From Pseudomonas nitroreducens TX1 (lineage in GTDB: Bacteria > Pseudomonadota > Gammaproteobacteria > Pseudomonadales > Pseudomonadaceae), in NCBI RefSeq assembly GCF_000313755.1, contig NZ_AMZB01000107.1, forward strand, positions 1 through 64,000: a DNA stretch of 64,000 bases. Reading direction: 5' to 3'. The notes beneath the pieces were generated by a model that did no database searches, was not told the origin of the DNA, and was given only the letters and a program-made list of their open reading frames with translations. Below, in pieces: positions 6,632 to 14,754 of the stretch (the stretch's first letter is position 1; every line of letters starts with the position of its first letter). A program made the position numbers and the translations under genes.

Positions 6632-6649
6632 CTGTTGCCTGAGCAACAG
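6632..6649. promoter_or_regulatory. Inverted repeat, candidate SfnR enhancer of sfnG
   Basis: CTGTTGC-CTGA-GCAACAG is a perfect 7-bp palindrome with a 4-nt centre. It lies about 86 bp upstream of the -24 element of sfnG. The half-site CTGTTGCCTG recurs as a 12-bp-arm inverted repeat upstream of the msuE operon (13589-13625). Sigma-54 activators such as SfnR bind dyad enhancers 60-200 bp upstream of their promoters. I infer that this is an SfnR site. Confidence 0.6.
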
Positions 6650-6734
6650 TTTGCCAGCAACGTTGGGCCAGACGGAACAGCAGCCGTTGTCCCGGCTAAT
6701 GACCAAGTGTCTGATCCGCCGGGAATTCCTCCCG

Positions 6735-6750
6735 TGGCACGGCTTTCGCT
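6735..6750 (+). promoter_or_regulatory. Sigma-54 (-24/-12) promoter of sfnG
   Basis: TGGCACGGCTTTCGCT matches the RpoN consensus TGGCACG-N4-TTGCW, with the GG and GC dinucleotides at the required spacing and one mismatch (TCGC for TTGC). It lies 51 bp before the GTG start of sfnG. It fits regulation of sfnG by the sigma-54 activator SfnR encoded about 3 kb away. Confidence 0.75.
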
Positions 6751-6801
6751 CTGTACATCCTGCGGCACCTTCGCCGCAGTGCAGCATCGAGGAGCCGAGC
6801 C

Positions 6802-7896
6802 GTGAGCCAACAAGCGATCCGTTTTGCCTACTGGGTTCCCAACGTCAGTGGCGGCCTGGTGGTCAGCAAGATTGAGCAGCGCACCCACTGGGACATCGAC
6901 TACAACCGCGAGCTCGCGCGCATTGCCGAGAACGCCGGATTCGACTACGCGCTGACGCAGATCCGCTTCACCGCCGGCTACGGCGCCGAGAACCAGCACG
7001 AGTCGGTGGCATTCAGCCATGCCCTGCTGGGCGCCACCGAGAAACTCAAGGTGATCGCCGCCATCCTCCCCGGCCCCTGGACGCCCGCGCTGGCCGCCAA
7101 GCAACTGGCCACCATCGACCAGCTCACTGCCGGGCGTATTGCGGTAAACATCGTCAGCGGCTGGTTCAAGGGTGAATTCCAGGCCATCGGCGAGCCCTGG
7201 CTGGAACACGACGAACGCTACCGTCGCTCGGAGGAATTCATCCGCGCCCTGAAGGGCATCTGGACCCAGGACAACTTCACTTTCACGGGCGACTTCTACC
7301 GCTTCCACGATTACAACCTCAAGCCCAAACCCATCCAGCGTCCGCACCCGGAGATCTTCCAGGGCGGCAGCTCGCGAGCCGCGCGGGACATGGCTTCGCG
7401 CGTTTCCGACTGGTACTTCACCAACGGCAACAGCGTGGAAGGCATCAAGGCCCAGGTGGACGACATCCGCGAAAAAGCCGCAGCCAACGGACATTCGGTG
7501 AAGATCGGCGTGAACGCTTTCGTCATCGCCCGCGACACCGAGCAAGAGGCCCGCGCGGTGCTCGCCGAGATCATCGACAAGGCCGACCCGGAAGCGGTGA
7601 ACGCCTTCGGCCACGCGGCGAAACAAGCCGGTGCAGCGTCACCGGAGGGCGAAGGAAACTGGGCGAAATCCACCTTCGAGGACCTGGTGCAGTACAACGA
7701 CGGCTTCAAGACTAACCTGATCGGCACGCCCCAGCAGATCGCCGAGCGCATCGTCGCGCTCAAGGCAGTGGGTGTGGACCTGGTGCTGGCGGGCTTCCTG
7801 CATTTCCAGGAAGAGGTGCGCTACTTCGGTGAAAAGGTACTGCCGCGGGTGCGCGAACTGGAGCAGAAGAAGGCGCGACGGACCGAGGCGGCTTGA
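6802..7896 (+). CDS. sfnG: Dimethylsulfone monooxygenase SfnG (FMNH2-dependent)
   Basis: This 364-residue protein of the bacterial luciferase-like TIM-barrel family is close in length and sequence to SfnG. SfnG uses FMNH2 and O2 to convert dimethylsulfone to methanesulfinate in sulfur-limited pseudomonads. Characteristic segments are FAYWVPNVSGGLVVSK near the N-terminus, GRIAVNIVSGWFKGEF and EIFQGGSS. The start is GTG at 6802 after GGAGCCGAGCC. It stands alone on +, behind a sigma-54 promoter and an inverted repeat. The reductase partner is probably MsuE, encoded in the nearby operon. Confidence 0.92.
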   Translation: MSQQAIRFAYWVPNVSGGLVVSKIEQRTHWDIDYNRELARIAENAGFDYALTQIRFTAGYGAENQHESVAFSHALLGATEKLKVIAAILPGPWTPALAAKQLATIDQLTAGRIAVNIVSGWFKGEFQAIGEPWLEHDERYRRSEEFIRALKGIWTQDNFTFTGDFYRFHDYNLKPKPIQRPHPEIFQGGSSRAARDMASRVSDWYFTNGNSVEGIKAQVDDIREKAAANGHSVKIGVNAFVIARDTEQEARAVLAEIIDKADPEAVNAFGHAAKQAGAASPEGEGNWAKSTFEDLVQYNDGFKTNLIGTPQQIAERIVALKAVGVDLVLAGFLHFQEEVRYFGEKVLPRVRELEQKKARRTEAA

Positions 7897-7925
7897 TCAC
7901 CGACCGTCCGCGTGCGCGGATAGCC

Positions 7926-7991
7926 ATCGCGGACACAGTCCGCTCCTACGCCGGGCTCACCGATGACGTAGGAGCGGACTCCGTCCGCGAT
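7926..7991. repeat. REP inverted pair (GTAGGAGCGGAC type)
   Basis: ATCGCGGACACAGTCCGCTCCTAC (7926-7949) and GTAGGAGCGGACTCCGTCCGCGAT (7968-7991) are near-perfect inverse copies separated by 18 bp, a typical Pseudomonas REP doublet. It sits just after sfnG, between convergent genes, where it may stabilise mRNA ends or bind gyrase or IHF (general knowledge of REPs, not shown here). Confidence 0.8.
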
Positions 7992-8023
7992 CGTTTCCAG
8001 GCCGCATCACGGGCAGGCCTGGG

Positions 8024-8094
8024 TTCGCGAGCAAGCTCGCTCCTAGTCACCGGAAGCACCGGCGTGCTGTTGTAGGAGCGAGCTTGCTCGCGAA
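8024..8094. repeat. REP inverted pair (GTAGGAGCGAGC type)
   Basis: TTCGCGAGCAAGCTCGCTCCTA (8024-8045) and TAGGAGCGAGCTTGCTCGCGAA (8073-8094) form a second REP doublet 33 bp after the first. Its core differs (AGCTTGCTCGCGAA rather than GGACTCCGTCCGCGAT). Two REP variants side by side fill the 203-bp gap between sfnG and the next gene. Confidence 0.8.
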
Positions 8095-8099
8095 CGCCC

Positions 8100-9272
8100 T
8101 CAGGCGCCCTGCGTCAGGTGTTTTGCAATCGCCGTGCGCAGCGGCGGCAGGTTCTGCGCCAGGCGCAGGCCGGCGTTGCGCAGCAGACGAACTGGCGGGC
8201 GCGGGTCGGTGTACATGCCGACGATCAGCCGCGTGGCCTGGTACAGCGGCCAGGTCGCCAGGCGGTGAGCCATGGCGTAGCGGCGCAGCGGCCAGGTGCC
8301 GCCGATATCGCCGCCCCGGCGATGGGTCGCGAGGATTTCATTGGCCAGCCGGCGCTGGCTCTGCAGGCCGAAGTTGAAGCCGTGGGCGGTGACCGGGTGC
8401 ATGCCGACGGCGGCATCGCCGATCAGCGCGCTGCGCGGGCCGACGAAACGGTCCGAGTACACCCCCACCAGCGGATAGCTGTGACGCGCGCCGAGCAACT
8501 CCATGCCGCCCAGACGACGGTCGAAACGGCGCTCCACCTCGCGGGCGAAGGCCTGCTCGTCCAGCTCCAGCAGCGGCGCCATCTCGCGCTGCGGCAAGGT
8601 CAGCACGACGGAAGAGCGGTCGCCATTGATCGGCAGCAACGCCAGGGTCTGCCCGTAGCCGAACCATTCCCAGGCCACGTTGTGGTGCGGTTTCTCATGG
8701 GCCATGCGGCAGACCATCATGGTCTTGCCGAAGTCCTCCATGCTCGCGCCGATACCCAGCATGCGGCGGGTCTCGGAGAAGCGGCTGTCGGCAGCGACCA
8801 GCAGGCGCGCATGGACGCGGCTGTCGTCGTCCAGGGTCAGCGCCACGCCGTCCTGCCGGACCTGCAGCGAACGCAAGGCGCGGCCGCAGACCAGCGAGAC
8901 GTCGGCACACTCGTGCACCGCGTCGAAGGCAGCGCGGCGGATCATCTGGTTGGAGACGAAATACCCCAGCTGTTCCGCACCAGCCTGCTCGGCCTCGATG
9001 CGCAGGGTGAACAGCGAAGGGCCATTGAGCACCTGGGCATCGCGCAGCGGCGAGACGTCCTCGGGGTCGATCCGCGACCACATGCCCAGCCGCTGCAGTT
9101 CGGCGCGGGAGGCGTGGGTCAGCGCGATCTCGCGGCCGTCCTCGGCGGGGTCGGACACCGCGGCCAGCGGCTGACGGTCGATCAGCAGGATCGACAGGCC
9201 GTTGCCCGACAGCGAGCGGGCCAGGCAAAGCCCGGCGGGGCCGGCGCCGACGATGGCGATGTCCACGTGCAT
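8100..9272 (-). CDS. UbiH/UbiF/COQ6-type FAD-dependent hydroxylase
   Basis: This 390-residue flavoprotein monooxygenase has an N-terminal dinucleotide-binding loop (IVGAGPAGLCLA, residues 7-18). The FAD-ribityl GD motif is IGDAAVGMHPVTAHGFN. The MHPVTAHGFNFGLQ segment is typical of ubiquinone-biosynthesis hydroxylases (UbiH/UbiI/UbiF; a UbiM-like role is possible). The exact ring position it acts on cannot be told. The start ATG at 9272 follows AGGAGTCACCC. It lies 125 bp downstream of sfnR on the same strand but looks independent of that operon. Confidence 0.82.
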   Translation of the reverse strand: MHVDIAIVGAGPAGLCLARSLSGNGLSILLIDRQPLAAVSDPAEDGREIALTHASRAELQRLGMWSRIDPEDVSPLRDAQVLNGPSLFTLRIEAEQAGAEQLGYFVSNQMIRRAAFDAVHECADVSLVCGRALRSLQVRQDGVALTLDDDSRVHARLLVAADSRFSETRRMLGIGASMEDFGKTMMVCRMAHEKPHHNVAWEWFGYGQTLALLPINGDRSSVVLTLPQREMAPLLELDEQAFAREVERRFDRRLGGMELLGARHSYPLVGVYSDRFVGPRSALIGDAAVGMHPVTAHGFNFGLQSQRRLANEILATHRRGGDIGGTWPLRRYAMAHRLATWPLYQATRLIVGMYTDPRPPVRLLRNAGLRLAQNLPPLRTAIAKHLTQGA

Positions 9273-9396
9273 GGGTGACTCCTTTGGCGAGGGATGGGCG
9301 GTCCCGGAGTCTAGGCTGGCCACTGGCCCGTTTCGTTGCCGTGGATCAGTGGCCCACGGCGAATACCTCCAAATAGACGGGCCCGACCCGAGCGAG

Positions 9397-10511
<1,115 letters not shown>

Positions 10512-10515
<4 letters not shown>

Positions 10516-11696
10516 GAGTAGAAAGTCGGTTGCGGCAGTTGCTGGTTCAGCGCCCAGTCGCCCAGTTCGCGAACCTTGTAGTCCACCGGGTCGTGCAGGG
10601 TCTGGGTGCGCAGATTGCGCCAGTAGCGGTCGATGCGCAGCGCGGCGTGGGTGGAGCGCGCACCGGTGACTTCGAACAGGCGGTTGCAGATGTCCAGGCC
10701 GTTGCGGGTCGCCGCGACCTTGGCGGTGGCGATGGCCACGGCCAGCCGGCCGCGCTCCTCGGCGTCCAGGGCGGCGCCTCTGCTCCAGGCTTCGTCGAGC
10801 AATTGGGCGGCGCGGCGCACCAGCAGGCGGGTGCTTTCCAGGCCGACCCAGAACTCGCCGTAATGCCCAAGCACGTAAGGGTCCTCACCCACTGTGGCGG
10901 CGTTGGAACGGAACCACGGACGGGCCTCCTTGAGCGTGTACTGCCGCGCCTCTTCGAACGCGCCCTCGGCAATGCCGAGGAATACATGGGTAAAGATCAG
11001 TTGGGCAATCAGCGGGCGCAGGCAGGCGAACGGCGTGCTCAGCGGGCCCGGATCGAGCAGCAGCTCGCTCTCCTCCACCCGCACCCGCTCAAAGGTGGCG
11101 CTGCCGCTGTCGGTCTGGCGCTGGCCCATGTTGTCCCAGTCGTGGGCGAGGCTGATGCCGCTGCGGGCGGTGGGAATGGCGGCGATCAGCAGCTTGCCGC
11201 CCTCGCCGTCCAGCGCCGAGGCAATGAGCATCTGCGAATCCAGCGCGCCGGAGCAGAAGCTCTTGCGCCCGGAGAATTCCCGCCAGCCGGCGAAGTTACG
11301 CGACACGGTGCGGGTGTCCAGCGGGTTCAGGGCGTTGCCCCAGAACCATTGGTTGCGCGCGGTCAGTTCGTACCACGGCTGCCACTGCTCGGGGCGGGAG
11401 AACAGCCGCACGGTGGCCAGCATCAGGTGCTGGAAGCCGAACACGTGGGCGATGGAGCTATCGACCACGGCAAACTGGCGCACGACGTCCAGCGTTGTGC
11501 TCCAGTCGGCGCCCAGGCCACCGTACTCGGTGGGGATGATCAGCGACAGCAGGCCGCTCTGGCGCAGCGCATCGCGCTCGGCCTTCGGCGTGCCGCCACG
11601 GATGTCGCGCTCGGCGGCGGTTTCGGCGAAACCGGCGGCCAGGCGTTGGGCTATTTGCCCGGGTGTCTGTACGTCGAGCCGCGTATTGGCGTTCAC
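10512..11696 (-). CDS. sfnC: Acyl-CoA dehydrogenase-family monooxygenase SfnC
   Basis: This protein of about 394 residues belongs to the acyl-CoA dehydrogenase/flavin monooxygenase (DszC-like) family. Segments include LIIPTEYGGLGADWSTTLDVV and a C-terminal helical region (RYWRNLRTQTLHDPVDYK) characteristic of flavin-dependent sulfur-oxidising members. In P. putida sfnC belongs to the sfnECR operon needed for organosulfur use; its exact substrate is not settled. I chose the GTG at 11696, preceded by GAGGAAGCGAGC; the frame is open to 11747. Its stop overlaps the sfnR start by 4 nt. Confidence 0.85.
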
Positions 11697-11758
11697 GCTC
11701 GCTTCCTCTTCTATCGATTCGGGATGTGCCAGGCCCCTGCCCGGCACACCAGGAGAAC

Positions 11759-12904
11759 TCAGCCGGCCTTGCGCCCAGGCAGCACATCGTTGGCGATCAT
11801 CTCGCCGAAGGGCCCGGTGAGGTTGGTCACGCCGCGGCCGGCGAGGCTCGCATAGGGCTCGGGCAGCAGCGGGAAGACCAGTTCGGCGAAACGGTAGGCC
11901 TCTTCCAGGTGCGGGTAGCCGGAGAAGATGAAGCTGTCGATCCCTAGGTCCGCATACTCCTTGATGCGCTCGGCGACCTGCTGCGGGTCGCCCACCAGCG
12001 CGGTACCGGCGCCGCCACGCACCAGGCCGACGCCGGCCCAGAGGTTGGGGTAGATCTCCAGCTGGTCACGGCGGCCGCCGTGCAGCGCGGCCATGCGCCG
12101 CTGGCCTTCGGAGTCGAAGCGGGCGAAGGATTTCTGCGCGTTGGCGATGGTCTCGTCGGAGATGTTGCCGATCAGCTTGTCGGCGGCCTGCCAGGCCTCC
12201 TCGGCGGTCTCGCGGACGATCACGTGCAGGCGAATGCCGAACTTGACGGTGCGCCCCTGCTTCGCGGCTTTCTCGCGCACATCGGCAAGCTTCTGCGCGA
12301 CCGCTTGCGGCGGCTCGCCCCAGGTCAGGTAGACGTCCACCTGCTCGGCGGCCAGGTCGTGGGCCTCGGCGGAGGAGCCGCCGAAGTACAGCGGCGGATA
12401 CGGCTTCTGGATCGGCGGATAGAGCGCCTTGGCGTTCTCCACCTGCAGGTGCTTGCCCTTGAAGTCCACGGATTCGCCCTGCAGCACGCGGCGCCAGATA
12501 CGCAGGAATTCATCGGTGACTTCATAGCGCTCGGCGTGGCTGAGGTGGATGCCGTCGCCACGGTTTTCATCCGGGTCGCCGCCGGTGACCACGTTGATCA
12601 GCAGGCGGCCGCCGGACAGCCGGTCCAGGGTCGCGGCCATGCGCGCGGACACGGTGGGCGAGATGATCCCCGGACGGATCGCCACCAGGTAACGCAGGCG
12701 CTCGGTGAGCGGCGCCAGGGCCGAGGCGACCACCCAGGAATCCTCGCAGGAGCGGCCGGTGGGAATCAGCACGCCGTAATAGCCGAGGGAATCGGCGGCC
12801 TGGGCGATCTGTTTGAGATACGGCAGCGACACCGGGCGCGCACCCTCGCTGGTGCCGAGGAAGTGGCCGTCGCCGTGGGTGGGCAGGAACCAGAACACGT
12901 TCAT
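11759..12904 (-). CDS. msuD: FMNH2-dependent methanesulfonate/alkanesulfonate monooxygenase MsuD
   Basis: At 381 residues it has the usual length of MsuD/SsuD. These TIM-barrel, luciferase-like enzymes release sulfite from C1 or longer alkanesulfonates. Family marks are [15 protein letters not shown] at the N-terminus, [26 protein letters not shown] and [15 protein letters not shown]. Similarity of the remembered P. aeruginosa MsuD sequence and the operon context favour MsuD over SsuD. It starts 10 nt after the msuE stop. It takes FMNH2 from MsuE and acts downstream of SfnG in the dimethylsulfone to sulfite route. Confidence 0.9.
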
Positions 12905-12914
12905 CGCGGGCTCC

Positions 12915-13472
12915 TCAGGCAGTCTTGCGCAGTTGCGGGCGGGCGAACAGCGGCGCGGCGCGCTCGGCGGCCAGCTGGATGCGCGCGCGCAGGGTGTCGC
13001 TGATGATCTGGTAGTTGGCGAAGTCCCCTTCGCTGGCGTACACGCCGATGGGTAGCGTGATCGACTGGAAGAAGCTGAACAGCGGGCGCAGCTGGTGGTC
13101 GAGGACAAGGGCGTGACGCTCGCTGCCGCCGGTGGCGGCGAGCAGCACCGGGGTGTCGATCAGGGCGTTCATGTCCACCAGGTCGAACAGGTGCTTGAGC
13201 AGGCCCGGATAGGAGCCACGGTAGACCGGAGAGGCGACTACCAGCAGATCGGCGGTCTCGATCTCGCGTAGCGTGGCTTCCAGCTCGGCGGAGAGCTCCT
13301 GGCGGGACAATGCGGCACCCAGCGGGCGGGCGATGTCGGCCAGTTCGATGAGCCGGGTGTCTACCGGCAAGCGTTCGCCGAGGGCGTCCAGCACGGCCTG
13401 GGTGAGCACCAGGGTGCGCGAGGGACGATAGGTGCCGCCGGAGACGGCGACCACTTTGATGGGGCTGGTCAT
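12915..13472 (-). CDS. msuE: NAD(P)H-dependent FMN reductase MsuE
   Basis: This 185-residue flavodoxin-fold reductase has the N-terminal phosphate loop [10 protein letters not shown] and the [19 protein letters not shown] segment typical of MsuE/SsuE. It supplies FMNH2 to MsuD and probably to SfnG. It is the first gene of a four-gene operon transcribed from a sigma-54 promoter about 43 bp upstream. In P. putida the equivalent gene is called sfnE. Confidence 0.92.
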
Positions 13473-13514
13473 GGGTTTTCCCTGTTGACTGTTGCGCTAG
13501 GTACAGAAGCCTTG

Positions 13515-13530
13515 AGCAAGGGCCGTACCA
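13515..13530 (-). promoter_or_regulatory. Sigma-54 (-24/-12) promoter of msuE-msuD-sfnC-sfnR
   Basis: Read on the minus strand the site is TGGTACGGCCCTTGCT, matching TGGCACG-N4-TTGCW with one change (T for C in the -24 box). It ends 43 bp before the msuE ATG. Together with the upstream dyad at 13589-13625 it puts the operon, including sfnR itself, under RpoN control. Confidence 0.78.
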
Positions 13531-13588
13531 ACAGGGAAATGTATGATTTTCGGGCACTTCAGCCCGTTCTGGCGGATGTTCCGTGTCA

Positions 13589-13625
13589 CCCAGGCAACAG
13601 CGCTGCTGATCGACTGTTGCCTGGG
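13589..13625. promoter_or_regulatory. 12-bp inverted repeat, candidate SfnR enhancer
   Basis: CCCAGGCAACAG (13589-13600) and CTGTTGCCTGGG (13614-13625) are perfect inverse copies with a 13-nt spacer. They are centred about 77 bp upstream of the -24 box of the msuE operon. The core CTGTTGCCTG also occurs in the sfnG upstream palindrome at 6632-6649. The shared sequence before two sigma-54 promoters is the basis for calling it an SfnR (autoregulatory) site. Confidence 0.62.
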
Positions 13626-13638
13626 AAACACTTCGCCA

Positions 13639-14754
13639 TCAGTGCACGACCAACTCGCGCAAGCCGTGGGAGATATCCAACCCTTCGAGCTCGGCCACGT
13701 ATTCGTCCGTGGTGAGCAGGCCGACACAGGGCGTCGCTCCGCGCTGACGCAGTTGCCCGGCGGCGAGCTTGCGCGCCAGCGCCACCGCCGCCATGCAGGG
13801 AATGTTCGGGCCGTGGTCTTGCTGCGCCAGCATCTCCCAGCACAATCCCAGCGGCTTGCCGTCGCCATCGACGCCCTGCAGGTGGACGAACATGCCGCTG
13901 AGCCCGTCGCCCAAGGGCTCCATCGCCACGGCCAGGCGGTGCAGGCCGGCGCCCAGGCGTGCCGCATTCTTCACCAGGCCGGCGCGCACCAGCCAGGAAA
14001 GGCCCCAGGTGCCGAACTGGGTGAGGCTCAGGCCAAGGCCCGCGGAGAAGCGCACGTCCTGCACGCCGGGATAACGCTGTGGGAAGAGGTCGAGGTCCGG
14101 CACGTCGCAGTGGGCCAGCCAGCGCGCGCCCAGCGGCGCGGGAAAACAATGGCGATTGAGCCCCTGCCAACCGTGGACGTCCTGCCAGCGGCCCTGGCGC
14201 CATTGCCGCAGCGGCTTGCCGCAGTAGCCCAGCACCGCGGATACCGTGGCCTGCCCGGGAATCTTGGCCGACGAGCTGATGCCATGGTGGATGCTGTCCA
14301 GGCGCTGGAAACGTGGCAGCAGGTCGTCGATCACCGAGGCGGCCAGGGCGGGCACCGAACTGGCGCCACTGCACACCAGCACCCCGGCGCTGCGCGCGGC
14401 ACGGTCGAGTTCGTGGATGCCGCAGACGAACTGGCGGGCATCGGCCAGGTCGACGTAATGCGCGCGGGCGCCGATGGCGGCGCGGGCGACGCGGTAGTCC
14501 TGGCCCTGGAACGGTCCGGCAGTGGAAATCACCAGGTCGACCTTCAGTTCGTTGAGGCGACCGGCCAGCGTCGGCTGGTTCATGTCCAGGCACACCGCCT
14601 CGCCGCCTACCTGCACCGCCAGTTCAGTGGCGCGGCGCTGGTCGCGCCCCCCCACCAGCACGCGGATGCCTCCGATGCCGCTCAGGCGGCGCACGATCAG
14701 GCTGCCGAAGTTGCCGTAACCGCCCAACACCAGCACGCGAAATGTCCGTTCCAT
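13639..14754 (-). CDS. Saccharopine dehydrogenase-like NAD(P)-binding protein
   Basis: This 371-residue protein has an N-terminal Rossmann fold (VLVLGGYGNFGSLIVRRL, then VGGRD) and the STAGPFQGQDYRVARAAI segment typical of saccharopine-dehydrogenase/trans-acting enoyl reductase-like proteins. The remainder is a family-specific domain of unknown substrate. I chose the ATG at 14754 because the Rossmann fold begins there; the frame runs open to 15177 through the GFA gene region. It is 46 bp downstream of the GFA gene on the same strand. Confidence 0.8.
   Translation of the reverse strand: MERTFRVLVLGGYGNFGSLIVRRLSGIGGIRVLVGGRDQRRATELAVQVGGEAVCLDMNQPTLAGRLNELKVDLVISTAGPFQGQDYRVARAAIGARAHYVDLADARQFVCGIHELDRAARSAGVLVCSGASSVPALAASVIDDLLPRFQRLDSIHHGISSSAKIPGQATVSAVLGYCGKPLRQWRQGRWQDVHGWQGLNRHCFPAPLGARWLAHCDVPDLDLFPQRYPGVQDVRFSAGLGLSLTQFGTWGLSWLVRAGLVKNAARLGAGLHRLAVAMEPLGDGLSGMFVHLQGVDGDGKPLGLCWEMLAQQDHGPNIPCMAAVALARKLAAGQLRQRGATPCVGLLTTDEYVAELEGLDISHGLRELVVH

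Follow-up and report, generated by a model that had tools for sequence, protein, structure and literature searches.

The 64,000-nucleotide stretch of Pseudomonas nitroreducens TX1 DNA analysed here (the window) carries two gene groups for the scavenging of organic sulfur, sfnG and the row msuE-msuD-sfnC-sfnR, each behind a -24/-12 element of the sigma-54 type. The locus raises the question of whether one activator, encoded by the last gene of the row, lands on the same DNA at both promoters. Our analysis suggests that it does: the two groups carry the same putative landing site, most likely for one known activator, and a third group outside the window carries it too. The letters before sfnG and msuE spell one putative operator, made up of an R-CTGTTGC-N4-GCAACAG-Y dyad, a CRRCA half-site 11 base pairs (bp) further on and a weaker site about 31 bp on (Table 1). 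The stretches 6632-6680 at sfnG and 13583-13631 at msuE are very likely two copies of one enhancer, a putative SfnR operator acting at sigma-54 promoters.

A putative operator before sfnG and msuE

A sequence-only reading of this DNA had described a CTGTTGC-N4-GCAACAG dyad 86 bp before the sfnG element and, about 60 bp before that of msuE, a dyad CCCAGGCAACAG-N13-CTGTTGCCTGGG, and had concluded that the promoters share a half-site but differ in dyad spacing (4 against 13 nucleotides). Both dyads and both elements are present where it put them, and the enhancer-like placement upstream of the two sigma-54 promoters is supported in silico, but the difference in spacing does not hold. As first written, the dyads run in opposite polarity (CTGTTGC..GCAACAG at sfnG, GCAACAG..CTGTTGC at msuE), and the N13 dyad, at 13589-13625, consists of the inner halves of two adjacent sfnG-type 18-mers; their outer halves are weak in this genome. 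Measured to the TGG of the -24 box, sites 1 and 2 lie 85 and 54 bp away at sfnG and 83 and 52 bp away at msuE, so that both promoters carry the N4 18-mer at a nearly equal distance, and at both the 13-bp linker between the sites contains CAGCA. When msuE upstream regions are aligned (23 loci from 22 of 25 genus genomes), site 1, which is GTGTTTCCCAGGCAACAG here, reads CTGTTGCCCAGGCAACAG in, for example, L026 and L029. Fourteen genus genomes gave a match; 13 sfnG upstream regions, those remaining once a partial match had been left out, were aligned and have the same layout as msuE, with a strong site 1, the linker CAGCA and a weak site 2 that keeps its right half, GGAACAG.

One could instead take the N13 dyad for a genuine separate operator type, with SfnR tolerating two spacings, given that an inner CTGTTGC half stands 13-14 nucleotides past site 1 in 32 of 58 msuE promoters, and in 16 of 22 within the genus. 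We regard this as very improbable: the inner half that forms the N13 dyad recurs in only 3 of 89 sfnG/sfnF promoters, whereas the N4 dyad of site 1, with at least 10 of its 12 core bases, is found in 57/58 msuE and 85/89 sfnG/sfnF promoters. Both inner halves are, moreover, parts of N4 18-mers, and the geometry of msuE equals that of sfnG. On these promoter counts, N4 and N13 were rejected as two equal site types.

The single operator is also well conserved in relatives, an outcome whose absence before sfnG and msuE had been named beforehand as speaking against the proposal. In all, 155 upstream regions of sfnG, sfnF and msuE were gathered, and 146 promoters were left once eight without a strict sigma-54 element and one with a short sequence window had been set aside; 141 of these carry the dyad with at least 10 of 12 core bases, as against 1.75% of 2,920 shuffles. 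A strict sigma-54 element occurs in 58 of 64 family msuE loci and, within 600 bp, in 68 of 80 named sfnG loci, where the best dyad matches 8 to 12 of 12 bases. For 11 of the remaining 12, an msuE-like gene, sfnF, directly precedes sfnG, and the sigma-54 element and dyad (10-12/12) stand before sfnF. Positions that were not used for picking the sites are conserved as well, namely the flanking R and Y, and C24, C27 and A28 at 81-96%. After dereplication of similar promoter sequences, which kept 70 of 142 (49 sfnG/sfnF, 21 msuE), CRRCA stands at offset +24 in 38/49 sfnG/sfnF and 16/21 msuE promoters, with other offsets reaching at most 7/49 and 4/21, and ACA is found at offset 45 or 46, in site 2, in 30 of the 49.

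The letters are no chance occurrence. The sole exact match to CTGTTGCCTGAGCAACAG in the 64-kb window is the sfnG site itself, which is also the only zero-mismatch place for CTGTTGCN5CAACAG among the matches listed for the 6.69-Mb assembly, and GCAACAG-N5..20-CTGTTGC occurs once in the window against 0.01 expected. With up to three mismatches, the plain dyad is found 8 times in the window against 4.54 expected, which is not significant (6 of 100 shuffles reach 8), and with up to two mismatches it shows no enrichment genome-wide (155/149, with 147/147 for the reversed control). Counting plain dyads, whether in the window or in the whole genome, was therefore rejected as evidence, and the case must rest on the exact site, its placement and its conservation. 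The last of these also bears on a reading of the msuE dyad as a terminator of transcription, or a repeat element, behind the upstream gene, whose stop codon (13639-13641) lies 8 bp from the dyad; the letters would allow a 12-bp stem. A search of 13400-13800, however, returned no terminator-like site (0 matches, no GC-rich hairpin with a T-run), and the msuE sites are retained where the preceding sequence differs between relatives. The terminator reading was rejected on these grounds, and we give it practically no credence.

Some details of the loci in relatives deserve separate mention. The loci with sfnF between the sigma-54 promoter and sfnG are L073, L080, L088, L091, L092, L118, L119, L120, L125, L127 and L140; elsewhere sfnG has a sigma-54 promoter for itself, with no intervening sfnF. 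The msuE upstream regions of G006, G009, G012, G018 and G021 (L022, L031, L024, L034, L032) contain an insertion of about 21-22 bp that resembles a tandem copy of the -24/-12 element, the upstream copy being without GG, and that shifts the operator by two helical turns, to 103-105 bp instead of 82-84 bp. Just upstream of the msuE -24 box, AAATC..ACATTT (13535-13550, minus strand) is conserved in the 16 nearest loci of the genus and could be the site of another factor. Among named SfnG proteins, the nearest comes from Pseudomonas nicosulfuronedens, with 97% identity. SfnG proteins 85-88% identical to Pseudomonas SfnG occur under the record titles Aquitalea, Zoogloea, Burkholderiaceae, Methylobacillus and Thauera (L080, L088, L120, L132, L140), possibly through horizontal transfer.

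Table 1. Features of the sfnG and msuE-msuD-sfnC-sfnR loci, in window coordinates
Feature	Sequence	Position	Strand	Remarks
sfnG operator site 1	CTGTTGCCTGAGCAACAG	6632..6649	+	18-bp dyad, N4; recognisable in 13 aligned genus loci
sfnG third half-site	CAGCA	6655..6659	+	11 bp past site 1 CAACA
sfnG weak site 2	TTGGGCCAGACGGAACAG	6663..6680	+	right half alone; centres of sites 1 and 2 31 bp apart
sfnG -24/-12 sigma-54 element	TGGCACGGCTTTCGCT	6735..6750	+	
sfnG, dimethylsulfone monooxygenase		6802..7896	+	TIGR04021, 630.6 bits, cut-off 382.95
sfnR, sigma-54 activator without N-terminal sensory domain		9397..10515	-	PF00158, 239.4 bits
sfnC, DszC/SfnB-like acyl-CoA-dehydrogenase-type oxidoreductase		10512..11747	-	NF043015 350.2 and TIGR04022 276.4 bits, both below cut-off; named by position
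msuD, alkanesulfonate monooxygenase		11759..12904	-	TIGR03565, 645.1 bits, cut-off 518.2
msuE, FMN reductase		12915..13472	-	TIGR03566, 261.5 bits, cut-off 212.5
SfnR-like leader dyad of msuE	CTGTACCTAGCGCAACAG	13489..13506	-	10/12 core bases; around expected transcription start; candidate autorepression site
msuE -24/-12 sigma-54 element	TGGTACGGCCCTTGCT	13515..13530	-	read 13530-13515
msuE operator site 2	CTGTTGCCTGGGTGACAC	13583..13600	-	centre 31 bp from site 1
msuE third half-site	CAGCA	13604..13608	-	11 bp past site 1 CAACA
msuE operator site 1	GTGTTTCCCAGGCAACAG	13614..13631	-	complete CTGTTGC-N4-GCAACAG in several relatives

The composite motif and a third promoter

Written as TGTTG-N6-CAACA-N-Y-N4-CRRCA, the composite motif gives 120 matches in 65 of 248 family genomes, and the reversed motif, used as the control, gives 1. 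With one mismatch allowed, the genome of this strain has four matches at three places (sfnG, msuE and contig C99), and the control has none. The operator definition is thus compact and searchable without annotation, and in this search it names three promoters in this genome and nothing else. The sequence-only reading had spoken of a compact regulon behind two promoters; the compactness is borne out, but in this genome the promoters are three.

The third site, CTGTTGCCACAGCAACAC (G000:C99:42966-42992; L004, L240), is followed after 83 bp by a sigma-54-like element, CGGCACAGCTTGTGC, which has the GG-N10-GC form common to all three promoters with CGG instead of TGG, and then by a gene for SfnB (TIGR04022, 636.2 bits, cut-off 430.9). 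Behind that gene come, on the same strand, DmoA-type, MetI-like, MetQ-like, sfnB, sfnB and DmoA-type genes, and the row from the first sfnB to the last DmoA-type gene presumably forms one operon. Sites of this form are present in 14 genus genomes including this one, according to a reading of the match list in which the gene was checked in two. A scan of this genome for a sigma-54 element combined with CAACA yielded 16 matches against 9 for the reversed control, with 11 or 12 of 12 bases only at the two known promoters; it missed the sfnB promoter because TGG was required.

Twenty further motif regions in relatives were picked by hand, 17 of which have a sigma-54-like element 40-230 bp on (L256 is doubtful) and three of which do not (L246, L254, L258). 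The genes behind these motifs are mostly those for sulfonate transport, SsuD, SsuE, SfnB, SfnC and DmoA-type proteins. Ten proteins were named by NCBIfam (SfnB, SsuA-, SsuE-, SsuD- and SfnC-like, DmoA-type), and the others only by similar N-termini, one of them (L246) looking unrelated. Because the composite motif mostly precedes organosulfur genes in relatives, it is usable for assigning unknown genes to organosulfur scavenging.

SfnR as the predicted binder and a possible limit to its feedback

SfnR is the predicted binder of the shared operator. Across the 248 family genomes, SfnR (at least 75% identity) and the composite motif occur together in 60, the motif alone in 5, SfnR alone in 10 and neither in 173, which places SfnR in 60/65 genomes with the motif and 10/183 of the others. 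An alternative is that the sites bind another regulator, either an SfnR-like paralogue of 63% identity or CysB, in which case SfnR would act at other places or have no role. The C-terminus of the paralogue is similar to that of SfnR by eye, and CysB is said, in a title of Kouzuma's from 2008, to be the master regulator above SfnR. We nevertheless consider this alternative unlikely. Genomes that have only SfnR-like proteins below 75% identity carry the motif in just 1 of 14 cases, which favours SfnR over a paralogue; ten g6 genomes that have sfnG, and whose SfnR-like proteins are all at 66-69%, show no strict sigma-54 element in the 420 bp before sfnG, their operons not having been followed further up; and CysB, as a LysR-type protein, would not alone explain the link to sigma-54 promoters, on established knowledge. 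The genes around the paralogue (G000:C117:18355-19428, L209), for pseudouridine synthase, cation efflux, MFS, LysR and PAS-kinase proteins, have no evident part in sulfur metabolism, and no dyad near a sigma-54 element was found in this neighbourhood.

Several observations weigh against SfnR acting through this operator. The Fisher p of 1e-40 for co-occurrence of motif and SfnR ignores phylogeny, and the SfnR calls behind it are based on 8 scored candidates per genome. This genome encodes, besides the 63% paralogue, at least 15 more distant relatives. At E 0.01, Pfam finds neither a helix-turn-helix nor any other DNA-binding domain in SfnR, and the paralogue has a weak HTH_30 below cut-off. 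Site 2 of sfnG amounts to a half-site only, and the operator-to-promoter distances at sfnG vary in relatives, being mostly 72-100 bp and in some cases 148-187 bp. Finally, the eight of 155 upstream regions without a strict sigma-54 match, and the one with a short window, were dropped from the conservation count.

If SfnR does bind here, its anatomy suggests how the system may be driven. The AAA+ sigma-54 interaction domain (PF00158) covers residues 30-193, and in the 29 residues before it no other domain was found at E 0.01. As SfnR lacks a sensory domain, the signal is probably the quantity of the protein itself. We suspect that under sulfate shortage the SfnR produced by the msuE operon would bind the operator sites, occupying site 1 as a dimer, and that its assembly would be aided by neighbouring half-sites on the same face of the helix, with CRRCA one helical turn and the weaker site about three turns downstream. 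The assembled ring would then open sigma-54 polymerase at three promoters: those of sfnG and msuE-msuD-sfnC-sfnR in the window and that of the sfnB operon beyond it. For the sulfate signal we lean on the titles of published work. The four genes of the msuE row lie in tandem, with gaps of 10 and 11 bp and then a 4-bp overlap. Because sfnR closes this operon, positive autoregulation, as the sequence-only reading had also supposed, would follow from the anatomy: SfnR would feed back on its own production, provided that the operon is one transcript. A UbiM-family hydroxylase gene (8100-9323, minus strand; NF006593, 572.6 bits) lies 73 bp behind sfnR on the same strand and may be co-transcribed with it.

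The msuE leader adds a possible twist, in that its SfnR-like dyad hints at a limiting branch beside the positive feedback. A leader dyad with at least 8 of 12 bases is found at 53/58 msuE loci, or 16/20 after dereplication against 1.65 by shuffles, compared with 11/83 at sfnG, or 5/41 dereplicated, which is shuffle-like. Exact GCAACA or TGTTGC occurs in 10/20 msuE leaders but 1/41 sfnG leaders, and a search of sfnF leaders for a downstream dyad like that of msuE did not find one (best 7-8/12 in 11 loci). It is conceivable, though we hold it to be doubtful, that the msuE operon, unlike sfnG, carries an added SfnR operator over its start, such that it would be switched on from the enhancer when SfnR is scarce and blocked when SfnR is abundant. 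Against such a site stand the conservation of the whole msuE leader within the genus, the weak left half of the dyad, the lack of such a dyad in the sfnF leaders searched, and an RNA hairpin with a different centre that overlaps the dyad in some relatives (by eye). A P. putida study reportedly had SfnR acting negatively at sfnFG, a promoter other than msuE, from downstream of the start, which, if right, would set a precedent for the leader site. If the idea is correct, it would put a built-in ceiling on an activator that itself lacks a sensory domain, and the leader dyad turns SfnR feedback into a directly testable question.

Relation to known systems

Work on P. putida DS1, with titles by Endoh in 2003 and 2005, Habe in 2007 and Kouzuma in 2008, reportedly describes control of sfnFG, sfnAB and sfnECR by SfnR and sigma-54, and in P. 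putida the last of these titles is said to place CysB above SfnR. By these titles, the SfnR system, its targets and the position of CysB are already published; what is added here is the corrected operator, the third promoter and the msuE leader dyad as a testable surprise. The locus resembles that of DS1 in activator family, target genes, sigma-54 promoters and sulfate starvation, but here sfnG stands alone, msuD belongs to the operon of sfnR, and the third target is an sfnB operon instead of sfnAB. In P. aeruginosa PAO1, SfnR2 reportedly regulates dimethyl-sulfide-related utilisation, according to a 2019 title by Lundgren, and that system is like the present one in combining an SfnR-type activator with sfnG and msu genes.

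PAO1 has both sfnR1 and sfnR2 (PMC8234197), and under sulfur starvation its sfnG rises about 260-fold, its msuD and msuE more than 50-fold (PMC12581299). Unlike the PAO1 pair, the second SfnR-like gene here lies on another contig than sfnR, among neighbours without an obvious sulfur role. Letters for an SfnR binding site do not appear in the passages available from PMC13352529, PMC8234197, PMC8041468, PMC7962211, PMC10949508, PMC5372953, PMC12581299 and PMC10256816. A parallel in form comes from GcsR, which binds tandem 18-bp TGTAACG-N4-CGTTCCG sites in the enhancer of the gcs2 operon of P. aeruginosa (PMC4894688). As described there, that enhancer shares with the one proposed here 18-bp sites of two 7-bp arms around N4, in several copies before a sigma-54 promoter; it differs in its letters, in serving a TyrR-like activator with a sensor and in having three full sites, whereas the putative SfnR operator has one strong site accompanied by half-sites.

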